From a virus, in the IMG/VR virus record IMGVR_UViG_3300043411_000267, positions 1-23,238 of that record: a stretch of DNA of 23,238 nucleotides; one strand, 5' to 3'. This document shows, piece after piece, positions 1-22,927 of the stretch. The notes below the pieces were generated by a model. It did not search any database and was not told the DNA's origin. It worked only from the letters and a program-made list of their open reading frames with translations. The translations under genes and the position numbers were made by a program. Every line of letters begins with the position of its first letter. Position 1 is the first letter of the stretch.

Positions 1-2
1 AC

Positions 3-137
3 ACATTTTATTGCAAAGAAGGATGGGTTGAGCTTATCGACAATTGGGACGACTTTTCATCAGTCTATTTTGATTCGCGTAACGTTCCGACACATTGGAT
101 GCCGCCACCACCAGCACCAGAGGGAGAGAAGAAATGA
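3..137 (+). CDS. C-terminal part of a DUF551-type phage protein (5' end outside window)
   Basis: An open frame enters from the left edge and ends at TGA 135-137. The last residues include THWMP followed by a proline run and PAPEGEKK. A terminal HWMP-proline segment is the usual ending of DUF551 proteins, small phage and prophage proteins of unknown function found in accessory regions of Gram-negative phages. Only about 44 residues are visible, so the family call rests on this ending. The final PAPEGE codons also form a purine-rich ribosome binding site for the next gene, whose ATG overlaps the stop (ATGA). The same ending recurs on several unrelated neighbours. Function unknown. Confidence 0.6.
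   Translation, partial: TFYCKEGWVELIDNWDDFSSVYFDSRNVPTHWMPPPPAPEGEKK
105..134 (+). repeat. Gene-end/RBS cassette, copy 1 (encodes PPAPEGEKK)
   Basis: The core CAGCACCAGAGGGAGAGAAG encodes the last residues of the upstream protein and supplies a strong GGGAG Shine-Dalgarno just before the next ATG. It is nearly identical to the stretch at 1366-1393 and related to those at 1672-1696, 2067-2086 and 2443-2467, and at 22581-22600 on the other strand. Confidence 0.85.
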
Positions 138-247
138 AATGCCCATTTAAAGAAAAATGCTCATGCGGTTCTGATGCTCAGTTGTGCTACTACGTTTTAC
201 CAAAGTATTCATTTTTTTGCTGGTCTTGCTTTAATAAGAGAAGCTAA
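134..247 (+). CDS. Cysteine-rich 37-aa protein, zinc-ribbon-like
   Basis: A 37-residue frame begins MKCPFKEKCSCG and ends in CFNKRS. Its ATG overlaps the upstream TGA, and the cassette at 105-134 provides a strong ribosome binding site, so this start is well supported despite the small size. Cysteines lie at 3, 9, 11, 18, 29 and 32, with a CxC pair and a CWSC pair, suggesting one small zinc-binding knuckle. It overlaps the next start by one base (TAATG), which implies translational coupling. I recognise no family. A role in binding nucleic acid or protein would be a guess from the cysteine spacing alone. Confidence 0.55.
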   Translation: MKCPFKEKCSCGSDAQLCYYVLPKYSFFCWSCFNKRS

Positions 248-432
248 TGATTCATTACCACGGATTACCGATAACTCCAGCAACAGCAGCAGTCCGAGCT
301 GTGTCAGGTGGTCATGCTTTTGTATCGTTTCGCCATGCCGACCAATTGTCAGCCGCTAAGGTTGTGAGTTTTGGCTTCCTAACTAACAGGAGAATAAATG
401 AGCAGACGATTACTGCACCACACAAAGCTTGA
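247..432 (+). pseudogene. Truncated N-terminus of a phage TGT/DpdA-like protein (remnant)
   Basis: The first 36 or so residues (MIHYHGLPITPATAAVRA then GGHAFVSFRHADQL) resemble the N-terminus of phage proteins of the tRNA-guanine transglycosylase / DpdA-like fold. These are normally about 250 residues or more and continue into a conserved LDNGAFSAW-type segment. Here that continuation is absent. The frame runs through CTTCCTAACTAA (375-386), a sequence also found at a true gene end at 645-656, and then out of frame into the next gene, stopping at 432. The catalytic part is therefore missing. I infer a deletion remnant that may still be translated as a 61-residue peptide. The family assignment is from memory of the N-terminal pattern. 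Confidence 0.5.
375..386 (+). repeat. 12-bp gene-end repeat CTTCCTAACTAA, copy 1
   Basis: The identical 12 bases occur at 645-656, where they hold the TAA stop of the 398-652 gene. Each copy is followed within 25 bases by a purine-rich ribosome binding site and an ATGAG start. Copy 1 lies at the point where the TGT-like similarity is lost, so it is a plausible deletion or recombination joint. Confidence 0.6.
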
Positions 433-652
433 AGATTTTAAAGCGTGGCTAACAACTAAAGGCATCGCGCACCGCGAAGGCCGTGACGAGAATCAAGTAT
501 TGCAGGTAAATAAGGGCAATCACTGGCTTGCTATCTATGAGCGTTACGAGATCAAGAGTGATTACACGGTAAAGCTAAAAGTTCACCTAACCAATGACAA
601 GAGACTTGACAGCCTTGTTGGTGAATTTTGCAGAGATCGTAAGCCTTCCTAA
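398..652 (+). CDS. Small conserved phage protein of unknown function (84 aa)
   Basis: An 84-residue protein starting MSRRLLHHTKLEDFKAWL, with AGGAG seven bases before the ATG. The pattern LLHHTK, then a short helix, then VLQVNKGNHWLAIYERY is a type I have seen in small hypothetical phage and prophage proteins, but no function is attached to it. It is basic at both ends and shows no membrane segment or cysteine cluster. It starts inside the tail of the TGT-like remnant in another frame. Its stop lies in a CTTCCTAACTAA repeat. Probably a genuine gene; function unknown. Confidence 0.65.
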   Translation: MSRRLLHHTKLEDFKAWLTTKGIAHREGRDENQVLQVNKGNHWLAIYERYEIKSDYTVKLKVHLTNDKRLDSLVGEFCRDRKPS

Positions 653-656
653 CTAA
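645..656 (+). repeat. 12-bp gene-end repeat CTTCCTAACTAA, copy 2
   Basis: It holds the TAA stop of the 398-652 gene and is followed by GAGAGAGAAGA, the ribosome binding site of the 670 gene. It is identical to 375-386. Confidence 0.6.
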
Positions 657-669
657 TTGAGAGAGAAGA

Positions 670-1080
670 ATGAGTGCTGAAGACAGCGAAAGATGCAAAT
701 GCACATTGCGCGAATCATTATTAGGTGATGGGTGCAAGATGTGTAAGCCGTACTTACATATTGAAAAATTAGAATCGACACTTGAAAATGCTGAAGGCGA
801 AATCACGAATTTAGAGATTCGCATTACACAGCTAGAGGATGATCTAGCAGCAGCAAAGCTTTCAGATCGTGATAAAGAGGATTTGGAGATAGGAAAGCAA
901 ATTCGACGCGCAGCAGCATGTTTACCAGATTATTTCGACATAAAAATTCATGTTGAAAATGGCTTTGCAGGAGTGACTTTAATTGATAAAAAAGGCAACT
1001 GCCGCGATTTTGATTTTGAAGAACATCTTAGTTCTGCCATTTCAGAAGCCATTGACGCAGCAATTAAGGAGCAGCAATGA
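670..1080 (+). CDS. Zinc-knuckle and coiled-coil phage protein (136 aa)
   Basis: The N-terminus holds two cysteine pairs (C9/C11 and C22/C25, CKC and CKMC), a likely zinc knuckle. Residues about 31-64 form a clear heptad-type coiled coil (IEKLESTLEN, then ITNLEIRITQLEDDL). The C-terminal part is a mixed alpha/beta segment rich in charged residues. GAGAGAGAAG precedes the ATG. The stop overlaps the next ATG (ATGA), indicating coupling. Short coiled-coil proteins of this type are frequent in lambdoid accessory regions (Ea22-like), but I cannot name a function. No membrane segment or signal peptide is present. Confidence 0.65.
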   Translation: MSAEDSERCKCTLRESLLGDGCKMCKPYLHIEKLESTLENAEGEITNLEIRITQLEDDLAAAKLSDRDKEDLEIGKQIRRAAACLPDYFDIKIHVENGFAGVTLIDKKGNCRDFDFEEHLSSAISEAIDAAIKEQQ

Positions 1081-1397
1081 ATAACATAGAAGATATGCAA
1101 AAATCGTTTGAAGGTCAAAAATTCAAAGTTTTCAGCCCATTCAAGTGTGACATATCAAAAAATGAAGACGGTAATTATGTGGATGACACAACGATTTTTG
1201 CCTTTGCGTGGTTTTGCCGTGGGATAGCATCACAGGCACAGCGAGAGCCTATGAAATTATTTGCTTACATGGAAGACGTAGAAGATTTGCGAGACGGCAA
1301 AGATGTTATTCGCCTTTACAAGCACAAGGCCGCAGTGCTTGACCCTGTAGAAGTCAGAATTTTACTACCACCAGCACCAGAGGGAGAGAAGGAATGA
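1077..1397 (+). CDS. Mosaic phage accessory protein with ASQAQ-EP linker and PAPEGE tail (106 aa)
   Basis: Three parts can be read. Residues 1-50 are an N-terminal module ending in AFAWFCRGI. Residues 51-58 are the linker ASQAQREP. The rest is a variable segment ending LLPPAPEGEKE. The linker DNA (AGCATCACAGGCACA, 1226-1240) is identical to 2218-2232 in the otherwise different 2090-2473 gene. The tail is the cassette at 1366-1393, almost identical to that at 105-134. The protein therefore looks assembled from exchangeable pieces. Such proteins are common in accessory arms of Gram-negative phages and are of unknown function. Both ends overlap their neighbours by ATGA. Confidence 0.65.
   Translation: MNNIEDMQKSFEGQKFKVFSPFKCDISKNEDGNYVDDTTIFAFAWFCRGIASQAQREPMKLFAYMEDVEDLRDGKDVIRLYKHKAAVLDPVEVRILLPPAPEGEKE
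1226..1240 (+). repeat. Internal joint repeat AGCATCACAGGCACA, copy 1
   Basis: Fifteen bases identical to 2218-2232. Both copies are in frame within genes and encode ASQAQ followed by R/K-E-P, between different N-terminal and C-terminal modules. Confidence 0.7.
1366..1393 (+). repeat. Gene-end/RBS cassette, copy 2 (encodes PPAPEGEKE)
   Basis: The stretch from ACCACCAGCACCAG through GAGAGAAG matches copy 1 over about 25 bases, whereas the genes carrying the two copies are otherwise unlike. It ends at the ATGA overlap with the 1394 gene. Confidence 0.85.
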
Positions 1398-1669
1398 ATG
1401 ACGACCAAATAGCCGTATGCCCTGAGTGCAGAAGCGACCAAGTGACTTCCGAGCATCATCAAGCGTTTCTGATTAACACTGGTGAGCATTATTGCCACAC
1501 GATGAAAACTCAAGATGCCGATTCACCTTCGAAGTGCCTTAAATGTAAATGGAAAGGCGAGCGTAGAAACCTTCTAGTGATGGACGACCCAAAAGCCAAG
1601 AAGAAAGAGGCTAAAGAGCGTGCGCAATACGAAAAGTTAAAAGCTAAATTTGAGGTCAATCATGACTAA
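1394..1669 (+). CDS. Zinc-ribbon protein with basic C-terminal helix (91 aa)
   Basis: Cysteines at 9, 12, 48 and 51 form CPEC and CLKC pairs, the classic arrangement of a four-cysteine zinc ribbon, with a histidine-bearing stretch between them. The C-terminal third (about 64-88) is a highly charged helix rich in Lys, Glu and Ala. This suggests a small nucleic-acid- or protein-binding factor, though the partner cannot be read from sequence. The start uses the cassette ribosome binding site and overlaps the previous stop. The protein ends FEVNHD, and the last bases form a 17-base repeat that also occurs at the end of the unrelated 2470-2745 gene. Confidence 0.65.
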   Translation: MNDDQIAVCPECRSDQVTSEHHQAFLINTGEHYCHTMKTQDADSPSKCLKCKWKGERRNLLVMDDPKAKKKEAKERAQYEKLKAKFEVNHD

Positions 1670-1671
1670 CA
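1655..1671 (+). repeat. 17-bp stop/start joint GTCAATCATGACTAACA, copy 1
   Basis: It encodes the terminal VNHD of the upstream zinc-ribbon protein and, in another frame, the start MTN of the next reading frame. It is identical to 2731-2747. Confidence 0.8.
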
Positions 1672-1694
1672 CACCAGAACCAGAGGGAGAGTAA
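1662..1694 (+). other. Ten-codon mini-ORF MTNTPEPEGE: fused start and end cassettes
   Basis: The ATG comes from the GTCAATCATGACTAACA joint. After three codons (MTN) the frame runs into CCAGAACCAGAGGGAGAGTAA, the gene-end cassette, and stops. The result is a reading frame with the start of one module and the end of another and nothing in between. Its last codons still supply the ribosome binding site for the 1697 gene. I read it as an emptied gene position; it may act only as a translational coupler. Confidence 0.55.
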
Positions 1695-1696
1695 AG
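1672..1696 (+). repeat. Gene-end/RBS cassette, copy 3 (encodes PEPEGE)
   Basis: CACCAGAACCAGAGGGAGAG matches the other copies apart from one substitution in the proline segment (GAA for GCA), and ends in TAA instead of continuing with AAG. It is followed by ATG at 1697. Confidence 0.75.
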
Positions 1697-2089
1697 ATGA
1701 TTCCAGTTGACCAAACTAAACTGTATTCAAAAGATGGGATACATAACGGAAACTGTCTTGCGGCATGTCTTGCATCACTACTCGAAATACCTCTTTGGAT
1801 GGTTCCGCCGTTTGAGGAAATGTTTGGGCGTGGAGACCATACGCCGCGAATGTTTGATTGGCTTGAGAAATTCTTTGGTCTTGATCTTGAATGGGTTGAA
1901 GGCCATCCAGTTGATAATCTGCCTGAATATTACATCGCATCAGGATTGTCACCTAGAGGCGTTCTACATGCAGTCATCTACAGCAAAGGGAAGCTTGTGC
2001 ATGACCCGCATTTCTCAAGAGCGGGAATTGCAGAGGTAGATTCTTGTAAGTATTTAGTTAAAGTTTCAGCACCAGAGGGAGAGAAGTAA
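1697..2089 (+). CDS. C39-like / papain-fold cysteine peptidase-like phage protein (130 aa)
   Basis: The N-terminal pattern MIPVDQTKLY, then NGNCLAACLASLLEIPLWMVP, is characteristic of small phage proteins with a C39-like papain-type fold. C20, at the start of the NCLAACLASLL helix, is in the nucleophile position. H91 (in VLHAVIY) and D103 (in VHDPH) are well placed for the His and Asp of the triad. Substrate and role in infection are unknown; possible roles include processing a phage or host protein or modifying a host enzyme. The tail VSAPEGEK is cassette copy 4. The start is supported by GGGAG eight bases upstream. The fold assignment is fairly good, the catalytic activity inferred. Confidence 0.65.
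   Translation: MIPVDQTKLYSKDGIHNGNCLAACLASLLEIPLWMVPPFEEMFGRGDHTPRMFDWLEKFFGLDLEWVEGHPVDNLPEYYIASGLSPRGVLHAVIYSKGKLVHDPHFSRAGIAEVDSCKYLVKVSAPEGEK
2067..2086 (+). repeat. Gene-end/RBS cassette, copy 4 (encodes APEGEK)
   Basis: CAGCACCAGAGGGAGAGAAG is identical to the core of copies 1 and 2. It is followed by TAA and directly by the ATG of the 2090 gene. Confidence 0.85.
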
Positions 2090-2473
2090 ATGAACGAGAG
2101 AGAAGCGTTTGAAGCGTGGGCAGAACCAGAACTTTACGCATTGGATAAGCGAGAAGGTGGCGACATATATAGAAACGTCATTACCCGTAATGCTTGGATT
2201 GGTTGGCAAGCAGCCCTAGCATCACAGGCACAAAAGGAGCCAACAAACCTTCATTGTGGTCATTTCATTGGCACTGGAAAAGGTTTGTGCGATATGTGTG
2301 CAAACGGAAACTATCAAGAATGCCGATTTACTACAGCACAAGCACAGCCGCCCGAATACACCTTCGACCAACTGACTAAGATGCTTATGCAAGCCGCCAC
2401 GAAAGAAGGTTACAAAGTAACAATGAAAATCAAGTGGGCGCAACCACCATCACCAGAGGGAGAAAAGCTATGA
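2090..2473 (+). CDS. Mosaic phage accessory protein, AFEAW N-terminus and ASQAQ-EP linker (127 aa)
   Basis: The N-terminal module (MNEREAFEAWAEPE, then ITRNAWIGWQAAL) is a pattern common in accessory proteins of Gram-negative phages. It is followed by ASQAQKEP (44-51) from the 15-base joint shared with the 1077-1397 gene. The middle holds C56, C67, C70 and C78 (HCGHF, CDMC), a possible zinc site. The end is PPSPEGEKL, cassette copy 5. It is thus built like the 1077-1397 protein but with different modules. The start follows the previous TAA directly and uses the cassette ribosome binding site. It overlaps the next ATG by ATGA. Function unknown. Confidence 0.65.
   Translation: MNEREAFEAWAEPELYALDKREGGDIYRNVITRNAWIGWQAALASQAQKEPTNLHCGHFIGTGKGLCDMCANGNYQECRFTTAQAQPPEYTFDQLTKMLMQAATKEGYKVTMKIKWAQPPSPEGEKL
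2218..2232 (+). repeat. Internal joint repeat AGCATCACAGGCACA, copy 2
   Basis: Identical to 1226-1240 and in the same codon register (ASQAQ), linking unrelated flanking modules. Confidence 0.7.
2443..2467 (+). repeat. Gene-end/RBS cassette, copy 5 (encodes PPSPEGEK)
   Basis: ACCACCATCACCAGAGGGAG is close to copies 1 and 2, with an ATC-for-AGC change and AAAAG in place of GAGAAG. It supplies the ribosome binding site for the 2470 gene. Confidence 0.8.
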
Positions 2474-2745
2474 AGATCGGTAAAAAAGTATTCGTCTGCC
2501 ATGACGGTAAATGGGGTCGTCGCGTAGTTGGAACTGTGACAGCCACAAGAAACGGTCATCACATCAAGGTTAAGTTTCCGCACCCTAATCAAGAAGGTGA
2601 ACCAGATGTTGAATTTTGGGCTAGGGTCATTCCAAAAAACAGATGGAACGTAAAGCATTTTGGGGGATGGGCTGATTGTGATTGGTGGTGTCCTTGGTTC
2701 GCAGTTTATAGCTACAGCAAAAGGCAAGATGTCAATCATGACTAA
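2470..2745 (+). CDS. Small Trp-rich phage protein, SH3-like beta fold suspected (91 aa)
   Basis: I start at MKIGKKVFVCHDGKWG rather than at the earlier in-frame ATG (2434), because ATG 2470 sits just after the cassette ribosome binding site and overlaps the upstream stop (ATGA). The beginning resembles small SH3-type barrels: a GKKVFV strand, a turn with GKW, then RVVGTVTATRNGHHIKVKF. The rest is rich in Trp, Cys and Gly. No catalytic motif is evident. It ends QDVNHD, encoded by the 17-base joint shared with the zinc-ribbon gene at 1394-1669. Function unknown. Confidence 0.6.
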   Translation: MKIGKKVFVCHDGKWGRRVVGTVTATRNGHHIKVKFPHPNQEGEPDVEFWARVIPKNRWNVKHFGGWADCDWWCPWFAVYSYSKRQDVNHD

Positions 2746-2747
2746 CA
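2731..2747 (+). repeat. 17-bp stop/start joint GTCAATCATGACTAACA, copy 2
   Basis: Identical to 1655-1671. It encodes VNHD-stop for the upstream gene and MTN for the downstream gene in a shifted frame. Confidence 0.8.
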
Positions 2748-2926
2748 AAATGAGCAGAGCGAATAACACACGCACACTAACCTTTCCTGTTTTAACTAAG
2801 GTAAAGCGCATGTTTCGCAAGTGTCTTGGCAAGCAGCTTACAGATGATGATCGCGCAAGCGCAGCACAGTTTGATGTTGCAAAGGAAATTGAAAAAGCGG
2901 AAGAAATTAGAAAGGATCGGTTATGA
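2738..2926 (+). CDS. Small basic helical phage protein (62 aa)
   Basis: Chosen start MTNKMSRANNT lies in the 17-base joint and overlaps the upstream gene by eight bases. ATG 2750 (MSRANN) is an alternative. The frame extends upstream to 2660, but that part is antisense-like filler inside the 2470 gene. The protein is basic and mainly helical (KVKRMFRKCLGKQLTDDDRAS, then a charged EIEKAEEIRKDRL end), with no cysteine cluster or membrane segment. Its stop overlaps the next ATG. No family recognised. Confidence 0.55.
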   Translation: MTNKMSRANNTRTLTFPVLTKVKRMFRKCLGKQLTDDDRASAAQFDVAKEIEKAEEIRKDRL

Positions 2927-3387
2927 TTGAGATTAAACCAGTGACAGTAGAGCGATTTGATATGGGCGATTCATTCTACGGTCAGCCAGAAATGCAATCA
3001 TCTGAAACTGGCGATTATGTTGAGTTTGCAGCTTATGAAGCACTACAGAAAGAGAATGCCGCGCTGAAAGCAACAATCTCAAATCTGACAAAGGCTTACG
3101 AGCGAGAATCAAATGATTGTTTAAAGGCACTAGAAGAACGCGACTATTGGTATGAGAAAACCGATTCTCTAGCAGACAAGATAAGTGAGGTTTTTGACGT
3201 GCCAATCGGCGAGCATTCGAACATAAATTGTCCAATTGTTGAAGCGATGAAGATTCTTTGTGGCGAGTATGTTACTAAATTTGATAAAGAGAACGAAGCA
3301 CAGGCAAAGTGTATTGCAGAGCTTGAAGAACAATATTGGAATCAGTTAGTAAAAGTTGCAGTATCAAAGAATGGAGATAGCAAATGA
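2923..3387 (+). CDS. Coiled-coil accessory protein, Ea22-like organisation (154 aa)
   Basis: A short N-terminal segment leads to YVEFAAYEALQKENAALK, the entry into a coiled coil running to about residue 85. This arrangement is typical of Ea22-type and related accessory proteins of lambdoid phages, which are non-essential and of unknown function. A second, more globular part (FDVPIGEHSNINCPIVEAM, then KILCG) is followed by another coiled segment with KENEAQAKCIAELEEQY. No signal peptide is present. It overlaps both neighbours by ATGA, so it belongs to the same translationally coupled string. Confidence 0.6.
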   Translation: MIEIKPVTVERFDMGDSFYGQPEMQSSETGDYVEFAAYEALQKENAALKATISNLTKAYERESNDCLKALEERDYWYEKTDSLADKISEVFDVPIGEHSNINCPIVEAMKILCGEYVTKFDKENEAQAKCIAELEEQYWNQLVKVAVSKNGDSK

Positions 3388-3596
3388 ATGAACCAACACT
3401 ATTTTTACTCTACTCAGGAACAAGTGAGGATGGGCGAGGAAGCGCGAATTATGCTGGACGAACAACAGATAAAGCCAAGGCAAAGAAGCACTATGAAAAG
3501 TGCATCAAAAACCCCTACTCTACTGGTTATGTAGTTATCTTACAGGGTGATAAAAAATCACGCGCAGATTGGCTTACTGAATGGGATAAATTATGA
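3384..3596 (+). CDS. Small conserved phage protein, LYSGTSEDGRG type (70 aa)
   Basis: The sequence FLLYSGTSEDGRGSANYAGRTTDKAKAKKHYEKC, then NPYSTGYV, is a pattern I recognise from small hypothetical phage proteins, without any assigned role. It is basic and compact, with predicted strands alternating with one helix. The start follows a GGAGAT site nine bases upstream and overlaps the previous stop. Its own stop overlaps the next ATG (ATGA). A small soluble cytoplasmic protein; function unknown. Confidence 0.6.
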   Translation: MNEPTLFLLYSGTSEDGRGSANYAGRTTDKAKAKKHYEKCIKNPYSTGYVVILQGDKKSRADWLTEWDKL

Positions 3597-3859
3597 CACT
3601 ACGAACAATCACATTTGATGACAGCATTTATAAACTTGTGCCTAAAAAATCTACTGAGGAAATGGGACGCGCTCTCAATGCTGTTTTACACAAGCCGACA
3701 CATTCAAATGCGGCACGGCTTGAGTCTGACTGCTACCTTATCGATCTAGCTATCGCAGCAGCGCCAGAGTATCAAGACACCTGCAAATTCGATAGAGGCA
3801 TGTGTGGCATTAGAGGCTATTGCAAAGACTGTATTCAAGACACCAAGAAGGATGAATGA
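3593..3859 (+). CDS. Phage accessory protein with YKLVPxxxTEEM N-terminus and Cys-rich C-terminus (88 aa)
   Basis: The N-terminal YKLVPKKSTEEMGRAL and the later DLAIAAAPEYQD match a recurring pattern in small proteins of phage accessory regions, where a helix ends in an AAAP segment. Here this is followed by a cysteine-rich C-terminus (C64, C71, C77, C80) that could bind one zinc ion. This is another N-terminal-module plus variable-end arrangement like its neighbours. GGGATAAATT precedes the start, which overlaps the upstream stop. Its stop overlaps the 3856 ATG. Function unknown. Confidence 0.6.
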   Translation: MTLRTITFDDSIYKLVPKKSTEEMGRALNAVLHKPTHSNAARLESDCYLIDLAIAAAPEYQDTCKFDRGMCGIRGYCKDCIQDTKKDE

Positions 3860-4104
3860 TGAAGCTACTATTTCTAATTTTTTCTGTAGTTGCATTGGCC
3901 TCATGCTCGGATAATCGTGAACAATCTGCTTATGACAAGATGAAAAAGCCCACAGAAATTGTTACGTGCTACTTAAGCGACGGAAAACAAGTGTATAAAA
4001 AAGAGGCGATTTATACGACTTCATCTAGCGGGACAATTCATGTAAAGCTTCCAAATGGAAAAATAGATTATGTGCAAGGCAATTGCTTTGCTGAGCAGAT
4101 GTAG
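3856..4104 (+). CDS. Predicted phage-encoded lipoprotein (82 aa)
   Basis: A short hydrophobic N-terminus (MMKLLFLIFSVVALASC) ends in LASC, a good lipobox with the modified cysteine at residue 17, so the mature protein should be a 66-residue membrane-anchored lipoprotein. The mature part has two more cysteines (in VTCYL and GNCFAE) and beta-strand character. AAGAAGGATG supplies the ribosome binding site; ATG 3856 and 3859 are both possible starts. Phage lipoproteins made outside the lysis cassette often act in superinfection exclusion or other cell-surface change, but nothing here proves that. Confidence 0.65.
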   Translation: MMKLLFLIFSVVALASCSDNREQSAYDKMKKPTEIVTCYLSDGKQVYKKEAIYTTSSSGTIHVKLPNGKIDYVQGNCFAEQM

Positions 4105-4133
4105 TTACAAACTTTATAGAAACAGGATAGCCA

Positions 4134-4241
4134 ATGACCTACCTTAACCACATCATGTACATTGCAGCCGCTTTATGTGTGCTGATAGGCTTAAACGGAT
4201 TGGCGCTACTTGTTGAGCTTTGGAGAAAGGGGAAACTATGA
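4134..4241 (+). CDS. 35-aa single-span membrane peptide
   Basis: The frame MTYLNHIMYIAAALCV, then LIGLNGLALLVELWRKGKL, is hydrophobic throughout its middle (about residues 7-29) and ends in a positively charged tail, as expected for one membrane span with the C-terminus inside. AGGATA lies eight bases before the ATG. It follows the lipoprotein gene by 29 bases in the same direction. No family can be named at this length. Alternatively the frame could be fortuitous, but the ribosome binding site and clear hydrophobic pattern support it. Confidence 0.5.
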   Translation: MTYLNHIMYIAAALCVLIGLNGLALLVELWRKGKL

Positions 4242-4302
4242 AATAACTTTGTGTGTTATAGTTTTTTTGCTGTACTTTTGTTTTTAACTTTAAGGATTTA
4301 TC

Positions 4303-22583: not shown

Positions 22584-22927
22584 GCTTCCCCCTCTGGTAG
22601 TTCGTATTCGATTCGATCTGTTAGCCAGCGAACGAAATCTTCACTCCATTCATCAAGGTATGTTTGCTCCGGGTCTTCATAAGGATCGGTAGAATCGGCT
22701 GTTGTAGTAAAAAATTCTCCCTCGTCTGTCTTCAATAATCCAACTCGATACCAGCCCTTCTTTGGCTCTGGCTTGATGCGGTATGCTTCAACTTCACAAT
22801 CAAAATTTAGTCTCGCAACATCTTTCCAATTTGGCTTATCATCGGTTCCGTAATTTCCTTGAATCGTCTTTCCATCTGCTACCGCTTGAATCAGTGGGAG
22901 CCATTCTTTTGCTTGCTCTTGGTTCAT
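22580..22927 (-). CDS. Conserved phage protein, WLPLIQAVADGKTIQ type (115 aa)
   Basis: I start at MNQEQAKEWLPLIQAVADGK (22927), with GGTGAG just upstream. The features YRIKPEPKKGWYRVGLL, then a beta region and LDEWSEDFVRWLTDRIEYEL are a pattern I recognise in hypothetical phage proteins: a small domain that lists a target or condition, then a tryptophan-rich C-terminus. No enzymatic motif is visible. It ends LPEGEA, where the codons also provide the ribosome binding site of the next gene, a more distant relative of the cassettes in the left arm. Overlaps the next ATG by ATGA. Confidence 0.65.
   Translation of the reverse strand: MNQEQAKEWLPLIQAVADGKTIQGNYGTDDKPNWKDVARLNFDCEVEAYRIKPEPKKGWYRVGLLKTDEGEFFTTTADSTDPYEDPEQTYLDEWSEDFVRWLTDRIEYELPEGEA
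22581..22600 (-). repeat. Gene-end/RBS cassette, copy 6 on the other strand (encodes LPEGEA)
   Basis: On the - strand CTACCAGAGGGGGAAGCATG repeats the ACCAGAGGG core, the PEGE codons and the direct lead into the next ATG seen in copies 1-5. The match is shorter than between left-arm copies, so independent origin is possible. Confidence 0.55.

Follow-up and report, generated by a model that had tools for sequence, protein, structure and literature searches.

The left arm of viral record IMGVR_UViG_3300043411_000267, analyzed here as one stretch of 23,238 nucleotides (positions 1 to 23,238 of the record, hereafter the window), holds an array of small genes in which a short sequence, cassette C, recurs as five near-identical copies at gene boundaries (C1 to C5, Table 1). 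An earlier reading of the sequence alone had described these copies, and they exist where it placed them. The 13-base core of the cassette, ACCAGAGGGAGAG, is exact at 116, 1376, 1679 and 2071 and carries one mismatch at 2452; with up to three mismatches allowed, 13 matches to the core are found against 3.0 expected. C1 and C2 agree over 25 exact base pairs, the length that the sequence-only reading had estimated, or at 31 of 32 positions when the ATGAA is counted in, and C4 has 20 bases in common with C1 and 20 with C2. All five copies directly precede an ATG, as claimed, and both the upstream and the downstream genes differ from copy to copy. The further claim that the copies always form the final codons of a gene is correct for C1, C2, C4 and C5, but not for C3, which had been assigned to the end of g6. 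The stop codon of g6 precedes C3, and the sole reading of C3 is a 10-codon mini open reading frame (mini-ORF), MTNTPEPEGE. A weak sixth match with two mismatches lies at 22586-22598 on the minus strand, at the end of g37 (..ELPEGEA) and before the next gene; we do not claim it as a copy.

A second repeat, the 17-base J2 (GTCAATCATGACTAACA, at 1655 and 2731), which the sequence-only reading had overlooked, comprises in both window copies a spacer and the start of an MTN.. frame, and follows a gene closing in ..VNHD. The order C, gene, J2 occurs twice in the window, forming a slot that is occupied once by g6 and once by g9.

Table 1. Cassette copies, J2 repeats, in-gene linkers and genes of the left arm (window positions; RBS, ribosome-binding site)
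Feature	Position	Strand	Description
g0, 3' end	3-137	+	DUF551-like, tail ..THWMPPPPAPEGEKK; carries C1; relative in E. coli phage MZ234010
C1	107-138	+	tail, RBS and ATG of g1 (ATG at 134)
Linker repeat in g5	1225-1249	+	..SQAQREP; 84% over 25 nt with 2217-2241
C2	1367-1398	+	g5 end (..PPAPEGEKE), RBS and g6 ATG; 29 bp identical to L006
g6	1394-1669	+	small CxxC protein, end ..EVNHD; occupies slot C2 to J2a
J2a	1652-1674	+	RBS GAGG and start ATGACTAACACAC; 23 bp identical to A 84289-84311
Mini-ORF	1662-1694	+	MTNTPEPEGE; start of downstream MTNT gene joined to C3; taken as scar
C3	1670-1701	+	cassette preceding g7
g7	1697-2089	+	phrog_5845 member
C4	2062-2093	+	g7 end (..SAPEGEK), RBS and g8 ATG
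Linker repeat in g8	2217-2241	+	..SQAQKEP; pairs with 1225-1249
C5	2443-2474	+	g8 end (..PPSPEGEKL), RBS and g9 ATG
g9	2470-2745	+	end ..DVNHD; occupies slot C5 to J2b
J2b	2728-2747	+	RBS spacer and start ATGACTAACA
g10	2738-2926	+	starts MTNKMSRANNTRTL..; downstream gene past J2; TAACACACGCACACTAA common with A and B
g11, part	3028-3326	+	89.6% identical to B 219-517; breakpoints within gene

Gene change at joints shared with related contigs

Five related contigs (L006, A, B, L160 and L162) have little long similarity to the window, yet have joints in common with it. Contig L006, located via the cassette, reads in order C, a 50-codon gene (MTNDLDSII..) and J2, followed by a start MTNTRQLKSRNQREG, a start like that of g11 and a gene resembling g15. 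Its first joint is identical to C2 over 29 bases and its second to J2a over 21 bases, and the slot gene between them is unrelated to g6 and g9, the slot proteins being without similarity beyond a five-residue tail. The expectation of the sequence-only reading that gene content would change exactly at the core is therefore borne out for cassette C itself by L006, where another gene follows the shared 29 bp, and for sister junctions by the A/B and L160/L162 pairs. At J2, the C-terminus of the L006 slot gene is read in a different frame (..RGQS) from the ..VNHD of the window, and hence DNA is common here and not a peptide. Because C3 lies in a mini-ORF, and J2 closes its upstream genes in two frames, it is the DNA joint that recurs rather than the peptide.

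Contigs A (84 kb) and B (56 kb) come from one sample and were located via J2 together with an MTN start. Comparison of the whole contigs gave 320 bp at 94.7% identity, 105 bp at 99%, 208 bp at 83.7% (at the contig starts) and two weak matches only. Between the 320-bp and 105-bp blocks, each contig has a different small gene, bordered at the left by a mini-ORF/RBS joint and at the right by J2, from which A and B are again the same. L160 and L162, located via an in-gene linker and not via a junction, agree at 98.7% identity along 232 bp until they split inside the Shine-Dalgarno (SD) sequence AGAGG. Past this motif, L160 goes on with TGACGGAATGA, as B does, and L162 with GAGAGTAAAAATGA, which is similar in sequence to C3 of the window (the divergent sequences at the joint are TGACGGAATGAAGCG in L160 and GAGAGTAAAAATGACTG in L162). 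B and L160 have 26 bp of this joint in common (ACCAGTTAAAGAGGTGACGGAATGAA), with genes that differ on either side. One boundary with different flanking genes in different phages is accordingly found for the window and L006, A and B, B and L160, and L160 and L162, and more joints of like build close in ENQQ and in SAQKGT.

A second type of mini-ORF, MTDN-SKEG(G/V)DK, is present in A and B, comparable to the MTNT-PEPEGE of the window. Both types start like a full MTNT or MTDN gene of other phages, with 22-23 bp identical, and then enter a tail cassette. Contig breaks tend to lie at or near the arrays, at the ends of L006, A and B and at the start of the window, as would be expected if many phages in a sample have joints in common.

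The repeats are far beyond chance. The longest window repeat is 25 bp, as opposed to 13-17 bp in third-order Markov shuffles, and repeats of at least 16 bp number five in the window and 0-2 in the shuffles. Of 132 distinct ends of blocks shared between contigs, 40 lie between -13 and +8 relative to a start codon; the expectation is 9.4, and 5000 shifted sets all gave lower counts. Because L006, A and B had been found through junctions, the test was rerun on pairs in which L160 or L162 takes part, with the linker blocks dropped, which placed 28 of 81 block ends near starts against 5.6 expected; this rerun also took in A and B, leaving some bias. To control for RBS and codon constraint, 2-kb pieces taken at random from other parts of these contigs were compared in 1200 pairs and gave 4 matches in 4800 Mb2, all from one pair with true gene homology, whereas the array area, 33-fold smaller, gave 52 matches in 146 Mb2. 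For codon choice alone, five identical encodings of PEGE have P ~2e-10 and, even when an SD core is required in every tail, P ~7e-6, both with the copies treated as independent. Given the control regions and these codon-choice values, codon and RBS constraint alone, which could have refuted the sequence-only reading, is rejected as the cause of the joints.

Proposed exchange mechanism and rival explanations

In the reading that we favor, and to which we give a probability of roughly 0.68, the cassettes act as boundary sequences within a rapidly shuffled array of small genes, and single genes are exchanged at them by annealing and crossover. Exchange of single genes at the tail/RBS boundaries is well supported. 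The mechanism is probably recombination of the annealing type, with the mini-ORFs as its scars. Each joint combines the final codons of one gene with the Shine-Dalgarno sequence and start codon of the gene that follows. Since one and the same joint of 20-30 bp is found in different phages and at more than one place in a single phage, DNA could anneal and cross over at it, the joint itself supplying the homology; a gene could then be exchanged or inserted, the upstream gene retaining its stop and the downstream gene its RBS and start. The work would be done by a phage recombinase of the ERF/Rad52-like annealing type, and mini-ORFs composed of a start and a tail would be left by insertions. Annealing is suggested by the ERF genes of two relatives, B (E=4.6e-19) and L162 (E=1.5e-11, ~0.6 kb from its array), which fit such a process. 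During lambda growth, Red-beta, RecT and Erf recombine regions of short homology better than RecA does (PMC3945230). Where the sequence-only reading had homologous recombination swapping genes at the cassette, the exchange of genes at the joints stands, but that it was homologous at the core, as against illegitimate joining followed by selection, is an inference.

A broader version of this idea is more tentative, and we lean slightly against it: unrelated phages of different types would share SD-centered joints as a common currency, single genes passing through one conserved slot by RBS annealing and start-plus-tail mini-ORFs recording past events. The phage types concerned are marked in the window by a Terminase_3 protein, with the nearest named relatives lying beside P22-like portal genes, in L162 by a lambda-type integrase, and in A by a DNA polymerase A, a ligase and a ribonucleotide reductase domain.

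Several points weigh against exchange by annealing at the joints. The exact C cassette was found in L006 only, and that contig terminates there; A and B also both end within the array. These two contigs have 99 identical bases at both their beginnings and their ends, with exact identity from the ATCATG of J2, which suggests that the assembler met a shared node, or branch point, of the assembly. Because the J2 17-mer alone is also found in other viral contigs (L136, L138 and L140-L149) in front of several MTN.. genes that are unrelated, mostly with an SD-like motif before it, part of J2 may be a common, widespread initiation sequence. Nor can the ends of blocks from related pairs count as fully independent. 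The joints measure 17-29 bp, at or under the minimum of ~30 bp cited for RecA and Red (PMC2327257), and therefore either events would be rare or selection helps. No recombinase was recognized in the window, which is an incomplete contig whose genes were not individually searched for such an enzyme. Finally, illegitimate recombination with selection for intact genes likewise places breakpoints at gene ends.

This last process is the main rival and, as outlined in PMC3029335, a standing explanation of phage mosaicism. Recombination would occur anywhere, only joints that keep genes and translation signals intact would survive, and a shared joint would have hitchhiked with one neighbor. The 72 of 132 block ends that lie away from starts fit it, although some in-gene ends also fall at repeated linkers such as QPAQEPV. 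By itself, however, it fails to predict the same 25-26 bp joint between genes that differ on both sides (B/L160, C1/C2), and chimeric joints that switch partner inside AGAGG are equally unpredicted; we consider it unlikely. Functional constraint, by which an optimized signal for translation initiation or coupling, or a conserved C-terminal peptide, is kept or re-evolved at each junction, would account for the SD-like core and start codon of all joints and has a parallel in the start-associated repeats of Cluster K mycobacteriophages (PMC3203893). It is nonetheless improbable, as the identity reaches upstream of the SD and into codon choice, gene-filled control regions of the same contigs are nearly without such matches, J2 is read upstream in two frames and C3 is not on a real protein.

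If one gene had been duplicated in tandem inside the window together with its flanks, and the gene bodies had diverged later, this might explain why g5 and g8 have both linker and tail in common. Yet no gene-body repeats extend past these short blocks, the slot proteins g1, g6 and g9 are without similarity, relatives of g7 exist without the tail and the joints recur in other phages, which makes this account highly improbable. We give the least credence to a site-specific or mobile cassette system using the joints as sites. A Resolvase-domain gene does lie in A (82084-82731, or L156 12084-12731; Pfam E=3.8e-23), less than 1 kb upstream of the DUF551 gene of that contig, but the joint sequences differ (C, tail', J2, ENQQ and SAQKGT types) and one enzyme is not expected to use them alike; among the ORFs adjoining the L160 and L162 arrays, no such gene was seen save the lambda-type integrase of L162.

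Known boundary systems, cassette origin and neighboring genes

The joints resemble the boundary sequences known from lambdoid phages (Susskind and Botstein 1978; Clark et al. 2001, HK620; both as cited in PMC3029335 and PMC2327257), which are likewise described there as short conserved sequences between exchangeable modules and as proposed sites of homologous recombination. Every C and J2 copy is such a short conserved sequence at a gene junction. Unlike the lambdoid type as portrayed there, the window joint serves as protein tail, SD and start together and occurs five times in one genome, and the joints are common to phages nearly without other similarity, form chimeras inside the SD and are accompanied by putative mini-ORF scars. 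What is added here to the boundary-sequence idea is this tail/SD/start build, the repeat use in one genome, the SD chimeras, the mini-ORF scars and the sharing among phage types. The start-associated repeats of Cluster K (SAS/ESAS) also lie directly upstream of unrelated gene starts, but the SAS consensus given in PMC3203893, GGGATAGGAGCCC, is by visual comparison unlike the cassette cores ACCAGAGGGAGAG and GAGGTCAATCATG, and the passages concerned discuss it as a translation-associated or binding site, with no description of it as the end codons of an upstream gene. The mosaics that Rad52-like recombinases produce (PMC3945230, PMC2327257) likewise arise by exchange at short or diverged homology through Red-beta, RecT or Erf, and ERF genes are present in two relatives here; these mosaics mostly involve longer diverged homology, in contrast to joints of 17-29 bp at gene starts. 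Integron-like gene cassettes would have attC-like folded sites and a dedicated integrase; the present joints are partly coding and varied in sequence.

Whether phage mosaicism stems from homologous recombination at short boundaries or from random joining with selection is debated (PMC3945230). The arrays provide pairs in which the position of the partner change can be narrowed to a few bases, at the Shine-Dalgarno sequence. The proposal also carries its own predictions, namely mini-ORF scars and chimeric joints, and metagenomes would allow these to be counted. If true, it would suggest one reason why such operons carry many small genes of unknown function, as any gene fitting the joints would be accepted.

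The sequence-only reading had also suggested that the cassette may derive from the proline-rich end of DUF551 proteins. Against Pfam PF04448 (DUF551), g0 scores 17.8 bits (E=0.0064; gathering score 22), the window having only its last 44 codons; its DNA is 72.5% identical to B 55033-55174, and a gene at A 83401-83904 scores 31.4 bits, above the gathering score. Because the E. coli phage relative of g0 ends in HWMPLPEPPSLV, a proline-rich end is native to it. The g7 relative in Acinetobacter phage vB_AbaM_3098 stops 3 residues past the last aligned one, just past LVKIS, where g7 has the cassette tail (APEGEK). The tailless g7 relative and the native proline-rich end both suit a spread from the DUF551 end to other genes, which is a plausible direction. 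The earlier description of g7 as a C39-like peptidase was not confirmed.

Named phages had no nucleotide match to window 1-4300, and bacterial and archaeal genomes gave 14 matches to the cassette plus ATG, near the estimated chance number, in unrelated taxa and none convincing. Apart from L006, a first cassette scan of viral contigs gave mostly a single in-frame PAPEGE in an unrelated protein. Terminase relatives were found in many contigs, with no left-arm genes save a g2 fragment in L037; relatives of g8 amounted to a single weak match; the DUF551 tail pattern gave 14 loci, none of which usefully matched the focal sequences; and g5 had no match in 195 genomes from the order of a Pseudomonas center, an empty result that is uninformative.

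Gene g2 (247-432) appears to be a shortened version of a phage protein (MIHYHGLPITP..), with 61% identity over 44 amino acids to L037 910-1041; it overlaps a 40-bp block, 340-379, with 95% identity to L162. Several small genes among those exchanged are CxxC-rich and by eye zinc-ribbon-like, but unrelated in sequence (window 134-247 and 1394-1669; A 84193-84306; B 55455-55661), hinting at a similar function in the slot. Inside genes, the linker repeat TAGCATCACAGGCACA, likewise overlooked by the sequence-only reading, occurs at 1225 and 2217. Repeated linkers of the QPAQEPV type connect the modules of long mosaic proteins encoded at B 54126-55166 (L150), L160 318-1394 and L162 9952-10671 (reverse complement), and in several phages these linkers recur as DNA repeats, an in-gene equivalent of the gene-end joints.

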